The notes below the pieces were generated by a model. That model had not been told where the DNA came from. It did no database searches and worked only from the letters and a program-made list of their open reading frames with translations. The position numbers and the translations under genes are program-made. Positions 43,283 through 44,927 of a DNA stretch of 64,000 nt are shown in pieces. Position 1 is the stretch's first letter, and the number at the start of each line of letters is the position of its first letter. Origin of the DNA: Kribbella pratensis (GTDB lineage: Bacteria; Actinomycetota; Actinomycetes; Propionibacteriales; Kribbellaceae); the NCBI RefSeq assembly GCF_004365355.1, contig NZ_SODP01000001.1, positions 2,239,473 to 2,303,472 on the forward strand, given 5' to 3'.

Positions 43283-43720
43283 TCAGACCAGCGTGATCGA
43301 GTCCCCGGAGACGGTGATCTGTTTCGGCGGGAGCGGCCGCGGCGCGGGCCCGGCCACGACGGAGCCGTCTTTCACGGAGTACTTGCTGCCGTGACACGGA
43401 CAGTCGATGGTGCCGTCGGCAACAGTCGTCACCTGACAGCCCTGATGCGTACAGGTCGAGCTGAACGCCTTGAACGTGCCCTTCACCGGCTGCGTGACGA
43501 CGACCTGGTTCTGGTCGAAGATCTTGCCCTCGCCGACCGGGATCTCCTCGGTCTTCCCGAGGACGGCGTTCGCGGGCGCCGTCTGCGAGGGCTGCGGGTT
43601 CGAGCCCGGTGGCGCGTTCGAGGGCTGCGGGTTCGAGGGTTGGCCGTACTTCGAACAGCCGGCGGCGGTCGCTCCGAGTACGACGGCCAGCACCGCGCGG
43701 CGGCCTGCTTGCTCGGTCAT
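43283..43720 (-). CDS. Rieske [2Fe-2S] lipoprotein
   Basis: A 145-residue exported protein. The lipobox ATAAGC puts the lipidated Cys at 22; residues 24-48 are a Pro/Ser/Asn-rich linker with a repeated NPQPS unit. The Rieske domain follows: cluster ligands are Cys90, His92, Cys107 and His110 (CTHQGC and CPCHGS), and Cys95 with Cys109 make the structural disulfide. It would carry one electron on the outer face of the membrane. It is the last gene of a coupled three-gene unit with a histidine-rich membrane protein. It is too small for a bc1 Rieske subunit and has no bc1 genes around it. Confidence 0.9.
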   Translation of the reverse strand: MTEQAGRRAVLAVVLGATAAGCSKYGQPSNPQPSNAPPGSNPQPSQTAPANAVLGKTEEIPVGEGKIFDQNQVVVTQPVKGTFKAFSSTCTHQGCQVTTVADGTIDCPCHGSKYSVKDGSVVAGPAPRPLPPKQITVSGDSITLV

Positions 43721-44247
43721 CGGATAACTCCGAACGTCGTGAAGAACCACAGGGCCGAGGTCAGCCACAGGCCGATCAGGGCGGTGAACAGGGCTCCGCC
43801 GACGACCGGCAAGAGCCATTTGGGGGCGTCGGGCCTGGTGAGCGTGAGCATCTTCGCGACGAACGCGCCGTAGAAGAAGCAGCCCAGCAGGGAGTGGATC
43901 AGCACGCGCGGTTCGCCGTACTGGAAGCCGAGTGCATAGAGACAGTGCGCGACGACCGGGAGGGTGACCGCGACGGCGGCGCGGCCGGACCAGCGGTGGA
44001 GCGGCGCGACTTTGGGGCGGCCGTGGTACAGGGCGTAGGCGCTGACAACCTGCACCAGGCCGAGTACCGCGGCGAGCGTGGCGAGCCAGGTTTTGACGGA
44101 CTGGAAGCTGGAGAAACCGGCCAGGTTGATCGCGACGCCGGTCGGATCGTGGAGGCGACCGTAGACACCGAGCGCGACGGCCGCGGCGGCGCCGACCGAC
44201 AGCGGTATCGCGATCGTGCTCGCTTTCTGAACCTGTGCTGTGCTCAT
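43717..44247 (-). CDS. Histidine-rich membrane protein of DUF6529 type, possible b-type cytochrome
   Basis: A 176-residue protein with five hydrophobic segments. His33, His75 (ALYHGRPK), His84 (LHRWSGRA), His101 (VVAHCLYAL) and His118 (LIHSLLGC) lie at or near helix ends, and HRWSGR resembles motifs in small heme-binding membrane proteins. I take it to be the DUF6529 family, whose function is unknown. Both ends overlap neighbours: ATGA with the Rieske gene and one shared base with the upstream gene. The likely role is to pass electrons between the membrane and the Rieske lipoprotein; heme binding is inference. Confidence 0.75.
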   Translation of the reverse strand: MSTAQVQKASTIAIPLSVGAAAAVALGVYGRLHDPTGVAINLAGFSSFQSVKTWLATLAAVLGLVQVVSAYALYHGRPKVAPLHRWSGRAAVAVTLPVVAHCLYALGFQYGEPRVLIHSLLGCFFYGAFVAKMLTLTRPDAPKWLLPVVGGALFTALIGLWLTSALWFFTTFGVIR

Positions 44248-44927
44248 CAGAACGTCTCATCTCCGACGACTGCCTGCGCGGTCACGGGTACGCCGTTGAC
44301 GGTCGCGGCGCGCCTGGTGGTGTCGAGCGGCGGGGCGGGCGCCGGCGTACCGTCGTCGTCGACGCCGACCTGCTTGCCGTCGGGCAGCACGATCCAGCCG
44401 ATGGTGCTGGTCGCGTTCCGCGCGCGGTAGAGGCCGGCGGGCGGGCCGGCCTTGGCGATCGAGAATCGCAGGGTGCGACCACTGAGCGTGAAGGCGCCGG
44501 TGGCGGTGTTGTTGGTGATCGCGGCGGTCAGGCGCTCGCCGGTCTTCGAGCGGAGTACGAGCTGACCGTTGTGGTACGTGCCGGTCAGCCAGGCTTCCAG
44601 GCGACGGCCGTCGCACACGTAGGCCGCGGCTCGCTCGCCCTTCGTCGCGATCGCCAGCGAGGCTTCACGTTCGTTGGTATGCCCTGCGTAGACCGCGGGC
44701 GGTTTGGCGGGGGCCGTCGTAGTGGCGGGCGCCGTGGTCTTGGGGGCCGTGGGGGTGACGGCCGACTCGGATGTGCTCGGTGTGACGGTGCCTTGGGCGG
44801 CCGGAGCGACCGCGGGCGGACTGCTCGCGGGCGTTGGATTGCCGGTCTGGGTGCTGTTGACCACGAGGAACCCGACCAGGCCGACGGCCGTCGCCGCCAA
44901 CGTCACCAACGGACTACGCTGCCCCAT
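44247..44927 (-). CDS. Membrane-anchored exported protein of unknown function
   Basis: A 226-residue protein. One N-terminal membrane segment (about 7-24) is followed by a Pro/Thr/Ser-rich linker (about 28-78) and an exported domain of about 145 residues with a single Cys (YVCDGR). I do not recognise the domain. It is the first gene of the unit with the histidine-rich membrane protein and the Rieske lipoprotein, so it may be a third, wall-facing part of that redox system. Confidence 0.7.
   Translation of the reverse strand: MGQRSPLVTLAATAVGLVGFLVVNSTQTGNPTPASSPPAVAPAAQGTVTPSTSESAVTPTAPKTTAPATTTAPAKPPAVYAGHTNEREASLAIATKGERAAAYVCDGRRLEAWLTGTYHNGQLVLRSKTGERLTAAITNNTATGAFTLSGRTLRFSIAKAGPPAGLYRARNATSTIGWIVLPDGKQVGVDDDGTPAPAPPLDTTRRAATVNGVPVTAQAVVGDETF

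Follow-up and report, generated by a model that had tools for sequence, protein, structure and literature searches.

What might a five-helix membrane protein of an uncharacterised family do when its gene is coupled by overlapping codons to those of an exported protein and a Rieske iron-sulphur protein? This question is raised by a three-gene unit in the stretch of 64,000 nucleotides of Kribbella pratensis DNA analysed here (the window). All three genes lie on the minus strand, in the order exported protein, DUF6529 membrane protein and Rieske protein, and both codon overlaps proposed by a first-pass annotation, made from the letters alone, are present (Table 1). A longer open reading frame that starts at 44260 is in the same frame as the Rieske gene and represents an upstream extension of it. 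The flanking VOC and M20 peptidase genes were considered as further members and excluded: the two occur together in seven of the 12 named Kribbella loci, and outside Kribbella, among the loci searched, an M20 match was found only at L058 and a VOC match only at L188.

Table 1. Features of the three-gene unit, with positions counted in the window
Feature	Position	Strand	Remarks
Exported, N-terminally anchored predicted beta-barrel protein (P0003 family)	44927..44247	-	226 aa; predicted helix 8-22
DUF6529 (PF20139) five-helix membrane protein (P0002), core of the unit	44247..43717	-	176 aa; Pfam 223.6 bits against a cut-off of 23.3
Rieske [2Fe-2S] lipoprotein, carrier partner	43720..43283	-	145 aa; PF00355 E 1.1e-14, 54.5 bits against 20.3
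TGATG, overlap of exported-protein and DUF6529 genes	44247	-	1 base
ATGA, shared by the stop codon of DUF6529 and the start codon of the Rieske gene	43717..43720	-	4 bases
K52 codon, outer group	44092..44094	-	109/109; aligns with an invariant His in five DUF2306 proteins
C102 codon, outer group	43942..43944	-	109/109
H118 codon, outer group (H-x3-G)	43894..43896	-	109/109
H84 codon, inner group (H-x3-G)	43996..43998	-	108/109
Q66 codon, inner group	44050..44052	-	109/109

The last gene encodes a Rieske [2Fe-2S] protein with all four cluster ligands (C90, H92, C107 and H110), a twin arginine (R7-R8) and a lipobox cysteine (C22), which bears out the lipidated Rieske protein of the first reading. 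An extra pair of disulfide cysteines is the mark of the bc-type Rieske class, and this pair is in place as C95 and C109. Among 125 relatives each of the ligands and of the two disulfide cysteines is kept in 123 or 124, and both disulfide cysteines in 124; a simple pattern finds the lipobox in 86, and the lipobox followed by YG in 76. At the second ligand pair, nine Kribbella Rieske partners have CDCH (L005-L008, L010, L012 and L013) or CTCH (L009 and L011) in place of CPCH, a change that might affect the potential of the cluster. In the Rieske protein of L064 (5496-5909) a Leu replaces the first His ligand, and this protein may not hold a normal cluster.

A disulfide-type Rieske protein on the outer face, beside an integral membrane partner, recalls the cytochrome bc1 and b6f complexes, but no cytochrome b or c1 is encoded by any of the three genes. 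DUF6529 occurs at a single place in the genome and the Rieske domain at 12, one of which is inside the window, while the three cytochrome b places (PF13631) all lie outside the window; as far as cytochrome b is concerned, the earlier remark that no bc1 or b6f genes are nearby therefore stands. The 12 best named DUF6529 relatives are all from Kribbella (73 to 96% identity), and the next one, from Amycolatopsis, is 61% identical.

The linkage of DUF6529 to Rieske genes extends well beyond Kribbella. In a class-wide sample of 394 genomes from the class of the window, 76 matched DUF6529, at 78 places. At 59 of these a Rieske neighbour (a match to the Rieske family that has the same orientation and begins at most 400 bases downstream of DUF6529) was found, 20 of the 59 also having the exported protein upstream, and the co-occurrence in other genomes, whose absence would have refuted the first reading, is thus real. 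The linked places are spread over 17 of the 28 genus codes that have a match, although the counts are non-independent because relatives share ancestry. The remaining places comprise nine with the exported protein and no adjacent Rieske gene, nine with neither, and one weak match that is not DUF6529 by profile. At L084 the Rieske match is split into two pieces in different frames. Two of the 59 linked places, L190 and L191 (the latter in the same genome as L108), hold only fragments of DUF6529 beside the Rieske gene, possibly a decay of the membrane partner with retention of the carrier. Among the named-genome loci (the best 80 of 98, a set biased toward close relatives), our script assigned a Rieske protein to 64, the exported protein only to five, a cupredoxin to three and nothing to eight, one of which (L068) actually has a cytochrome c.

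Small Rieske proteins of this kind are common whether or not a genome has DUF6529, with matches at E 1e-15 in 163 of 197 genomes, and the linkage could be regarded as trivial for that reason. This is opposed by the adjacency of the genes and by the substitution of the Rieske protein by other carriers, described below; moreover, 59 of 78 places have a Rieske neighbour though the K. pratensis genome has only 12 Rieske-domain places in all, which argues for a linkage beyond chance. The picture differs in the 18 further places of a phylum sample, where one had a cupredoxin and 17 had no partner, 15 of these 17 being short four-helix relatives. Two such short relatives (L101 and L106) have a Rieske gene roughly 0.3-0.45 kb upstream, and at L096, L097, L100 and L105 the gene that comes after the short relative encodes, in place of a carrier, a small protein with a single hydrophobic stretch. 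At L178 (1788-3158, minus strand) DUF6529 adjoins opposite-strand genes that by eye resemble a YedY-type molybdenum enzyme and a flavin reductase.

Replacement of the carrier was seen in the class of genome G113, where 14 of 148 genomes have DUF6529. This class is probably Acidimicrobiia, because the cupredoxin sequence of L112 is the same as that in L072, an Acidimicrobiia locus. Of its 14 places, nine have a c-type cytochrome directly downstream or fused (one fused), three have a cupredoxin and two, L090 and L115, have neither. Five separate partners were assigned by Pfam (Cytochrome_CBB3 in L091, L113 and L114, Cupredoxin_1 in L088 and L112) and the other partners of this class by motif patterns. 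In addition, two natural fusions were found as single open reading frames: L073 (293 aa) joins DUF6529 to a Copper-bind domain (Pfam E 2.8e-12), and L095 (271 aa) joins it to Cytochrome_CBB3 (Pfam E 1.7e-12). In a tree of the quick kind, built from 82 hand-picked DUF6529 rows and with L095 on a very long branch, the carrier type changed at least three times, and all five labels together required 10 changes against a mean of 36.4 after shuffling. Secreted proteins with AWPPV-type repeats, which we take to be COG4315-like, are encoded near the DUF6529 genes of L088, L089, L093 and L115, places with a cupredoxin or no seen partner.

Rieske proteins, cytochromes c and cupredoxins differ in cofactor and in maturation, and what they have in common is one-electron transfer outside the cytoplasmic membrane. 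Since carriers with three unrelated cofactors share this job on the outer face, we infer that DUF6529 is their redox partner. The carriers fused to its C-terminus should be outside, which would place that terminus outside and, with five helices, the N-terminus inside. Gene linkage, carrier replacement and fusions thus all agree with the earlier picture of a small electron-transfer module at the outer membrane face. It also appears to be undescribed, as neither 'DUF6529' nor 'PF20139' was mentioned in the literature searched, where we likewise found no paper that combines Rieske, lipoprotein, Actinobacteria and cytochrome b561. A module described elsewhere is different, as it consists of a cytochrome b related to FdnI and an iron-sulfur protein with a tail anchor (PMC10924467).

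Which residues could serve such a role was judged from an AlphaFold2 model and from alignments. The five helices claimed for the membrane protein are predicted with high confidence (mean pLDDT 94.5; residues 3-32, 48-74, 78-106, 113-136 and 145-172), and helices 2-5 would form a four-helix bundle. In 109 DUF6529 sequences, which include close relatives, the five residues of Table 1 are invariant or nearly so, and K132 and R114 are kept in 107 and 105. The first-pass annotation had singled out histidines 33, 75, 84, 101 and 118; their positions are correct, but H75 is kept in only two of the 109 sequences, H33 is kept in 89, and H101 is kept in 93 and variable, being replaced by M, S, D, N and others. 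The representative alignment A1 holds 81 of 85 sequences (L095, L103, L105 and L106 were excluded), and the invariance of H84 in A1 leans on the exclusion of L095, where it is Q; L095 is included in the count of 108 out of 109.

By depth, the conserved residues fall into an outer group (K52, C102, R114, H118 and G122) and an inner group (Q66, H84, G88, K132 and G150), and the full letters of each group, KCRHG and QHGKG, are kept in 104 of the 109 sequences. These groups near the two membrane faces would probably be redox or quinone sites. On the predicted helices and A1, eight of the ten (K52, Q66, H84, G88, C102, H118, G122 and G150) lie within 30 degrees of the conserved face of their helix, an analysis that is partly circular in that the judged residues also define the face; R114 and K132 are off this face by 68 degrees and H101 by 110 degrees. 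Both H84 and H118 are followed by a Gly at +4 on the conserved helix face, and heme histidines in membrane bundles often have a Gly four residues on.

The idea of a heme held between His pairs did not fare well. The two near-universal histidines, H84 and H118, are near opposite faces, about 25 Å apart along the bundle (distances and depths here are helix counts rather than model coordinates), and as possible pairing residues H75 is not conserved, while H101 is variable and off the conserved face. With a single near-universal His in each group, and none conserved in helices 2 and 5, the sequence gives no clear sign of a classical bis-His heme b. Any heme would have to be five-coordinate or else take a further ligand, for example K52 or C102.

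Comparisons with known families suggest a distant relation of DUF6529 to b-type membrane proteins. Searched singly against Pfam, its members gave weak matches to DUF4079 (E 0.00055), DUF2306 (0.0026), Ferric_reduct (0.0057) and Cytochrom_B561 (0.0072), those to DUF4079 and DUF2306 being below the Pfam cut-off. In profile comparisons, whose E-values are those of single comparisons, DUF6529 matched five DUF2306 proteins (five of the seven places found, with L209 and L210 excluded) at 86.8% (E 4.3e-6) and the ferric reductase profile at 8.4% (E 0.004), and the control BioY, a weak control of four closely similar sequences, at 0.06% (E 0.76); the DUF2306 profile itself gave 31.3% with ferric reductase and 0.07% with BioY. 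DUF2306 (PF10067) has in common with DUF6529 a helix pair in which Q66 aligns with a Gln (four of five proteins) and H84 with an HR..G motif, but where DUF6529 has K52 the five proteins have an invariant His. Membership in DUF2306 itself is not indicated, as P0002 is not listed among its matches and, of the DUF6529 members that are, the best reaches 18.3 bits where the cut-off is 31.6; no paper that treats DUF2306 together with heme was found in the literature searched. DUF6529 thus seems to be distantly related to b-type membrane proteins, its Lys standing at the helix-2 position that a His occupies in DUF2306, and it may well hold a heme.

Structural comparison added little to this. A Foldseek search of the PDB with DUF6529 gave no match under E 0.001, and a sequence profile search of the PDB with A1 gave nothing up to E 10. 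In the VIA fold comparison, cytochrome b561 (4o6y) matched with Z 8.4 and rmsd 4.2 over 128 residues, which is inside the tool's chance range for helical bundles, and unrelated bundles such as GPCRs and talin domains appeared at similar or higher Z. For this reason the b561 match is a hint only.

These relatives bear most directly on the strongest of the alternatives, in which DUF6529 is a two-heme transmembrane cytochrome in the style of b561 or ferric reductase and electrons cross from the cytoplasmic face, at the inner group, to the outer carrier. Such a protein would be in keeping with the H-x3-G found in both conserved groups, which lie near opposite faces, with the presence of cytochrome b561 among the fold matches and with the weak alignment (8.4%) of H84 to the first of the invariant histidines in the ferric reductase profile. 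Cytochrome b561 (PF03188), however, holds two bis-His hemes; DUF6529 is also predicted to form a four-helix membrane bundle, but has only one near-universal His per leaflet (H84 and H118) in place of four conserved heme histidines in helix pairs. Ferric reductase-like proteins (PF01794) likewise share the HR..G at a helix start, but their invariant His pairs, 13-14 residues apart (H49/H63 and H126/H139 in alignment A3), have no counterpart in DUF6529, where 17 residues separate H84 from H101 and a second pair is lacking. The fused protein L095 argues further against an essential inner heme, since its inner group reads QQAAV whereas its outer group, KCAHG, keeps K52, C102, H118 and G122; in this one sequence, at least, the inner group is dispensable while the carrier fusion persists. 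We therefore consider a two-heme cytochrome unlikely, though it merits the most serious attention among the alternatives. A further five-helix comparison, made by description, is offered by the Sco3746-type protein of Streptomyces, which is described as having a cofactor domain outside at the C-terminus and as predicted to bind two hemes b through four histidines, of which only three are conserved; it differs from DUF6529 in that this domain is predicted to bind a molybdenum cofactor and in having a Tat motif before helix 5 (PMC5449189).

The reading that we prefer, and regard as rather probable, is that the unit is a compact membrane electron-transfer module in which electrons pass one at a time between DUF6529 and an exchangeable carrier on the outer face, most likely from menaquinol to the carrier. 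Gene linkage, carrier replacement, fusions, conserved residues and the predicted fold are direct results of the analysis; the redox role and the topology are inferred from partners and fusions, and heme b, menaquinol and the direction of flow are guesses. With its N-terminus inside and its C-terminus outside, DUF6529 would swap single electrons with a tethered carrier, which is the Rieske lipoprotein here and a c-type cytochrome or cupredoxin elsewhere. The electrons would most likely come from menaquinol in the membrane, probably via a heme b at H118 and/or H84, and pass to a high-potential carrier, making the whole a small bc1-independent quinol:carrier oxidoreductase. Against this simple story count the places without a carrier, namely the nine partnerless and the nine exported-protein-only places of the class sample and nearly all of those in the phylum sample, as do the wide spread of such Rieske proteins, the single near-universal His in each group, the failure to find a significant PDB match and the loss of the inner group in L095.

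The supposed direction follows from the carriers: disulfide-type Rieske proteins, CBB3-type cytochromes c and cupredoxins usually have a high potential relative to menaquinol, and flow is therefore probably from menaquinol to carrier. The genes themselves do not give the direction, and it is conceivable that the outer carrier takes electrons from an extracellular donor, perhaps from a substrate brought by the exported barrel protein (a speculation), with DUF6529 feeding the quinone pool. Besides the usual potentials of the carriers, the lack of any recurring dehydrogenase, by eye, in the loci whose neighbours were read makes such a reverse flow distinctly improbable.

If DUF6529, rather than carrying electrons, helped exported redox proteins to mature or anchored them in the membrane, this would explain why in the linked clades it is mostly found beside such proteins. 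The three partner types, however, need different maturation pathways, and an anchor seems superfluous where the Rieske relatives mostly have a lipobox of their own and the partner cytochromes c an N-terminal hydrophobic stretch; nor would an anchor need invariant Lys, Gln, His and Cys within its helices, and this role has little chance of being correct. Equally poor are the prospects of a heme-free outer-face site for copper or iron made of K52, C102, H118 and H101, which, by helix counting, would profit from the closeness of the invariant C102 and H118 and of H101 to the outer helix ends (all within about 8 Å), but includes in H101 a variable residue that points away from the conserved face, while R114, in the same group, would be well matched to something acidic, for instance a heme propionate.

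The third member of the unit, the exported protein, is a less constant companion. Its standing as a partner, claimed at the outset, holds for 29 of the 78 class-sample places, but at 32 places outside that sample none was found beside DUF6529. No Pfam family was found for the protein of the window and only sub-threshold matches in NCBIfam, to which its aligned relatives also gave weak and scattered matches. It is predicted to be a membrane-anchored beta-barrel (AlphaFold2 pLDDT about 97 for residues 81-220), and alignment A4 of its family shows Y103, C105, D106, G107, E111, W113 and G116 to be invariant; among 95 members taken from the loci, C105, D106 and W113 are each present in 92. Foldseek, run with this protein against the PDB, returned nothing under E 0.001. 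Over its first half the barrel domain is similar to NHBA-C3 (Z 11.8, rmsd 2.5, 89 residues) and to TbpB, from which we draw no function.

Full-length matches to the exported protein (E under 1e-60) were found in 13 of 197 genomes, all 13 of which have DUF6529, a co-occurrence favoured by the fact that the profile was built from DUF6529 neighbours. Weaker or partial matches occur in ten more genomes; the one in G193 adjoins DUF6529, and G038, matched at E 2.8e-25, gave no match to DUF6529. The nine class-sample places with the exported protein and no adjacent Rieske gene all belong to family code f114, and there the Rieske protein may act in trans. In three f114 genomes (L262-L264) a Rieske protein with YG after the lipobox belongs to a small Rieske cluster and is encoded next to a uvrC-like gene, with a uvrA-like gene also adjacent where the contig continues (gene names by eye), and in a small sample of four genomes without a DUF6529 match (L265, L266, L267 and L269) the Rieske proteins that were read are without YG. 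A location between uvrA-like and uvrC-like genes, again by eye, was noted in several actinobacterial genomes, for the Rieske genes of L262, L263, L267, L268 and L269, and on the uvrC side only for L264, at a contig end. L268 is in the K. pratensis genome itself; here other genes intervene, and the protein reads CTHQGN...CPFHNS with neither disulfide cysteine.

DUF6529 is an uncharacterised Pfam family, present in nearly a fifth of the sampled genomes of the class, for which a role as membrane redox partner of three interchangeable carriers, with two natural fusions, provides a concrete and testable function. The invariant Lys where the related DUF2306 has His points to an unusual heme or quinone site. 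As a tentative possibility, DUF6529 may be a minimal quinol:one-electron-carrier oxidoreductase of a class not known before. Its heme or quinone site on the outer face would then be unusual, formed by a Lys, a Cys and a His that are invariant and an Arg that nearly is, and its partner slot would have been filled by a Rieske protein, a cytochrome c or a cupredoxin. If so, it would be a bc1-independent plug-in design that feeds different outer-face electron chains, and if DUF6529 does oxidise menaquinol without a Q-cycle complex, it would constitute an unrecognised branch of actinobacterial respiration.
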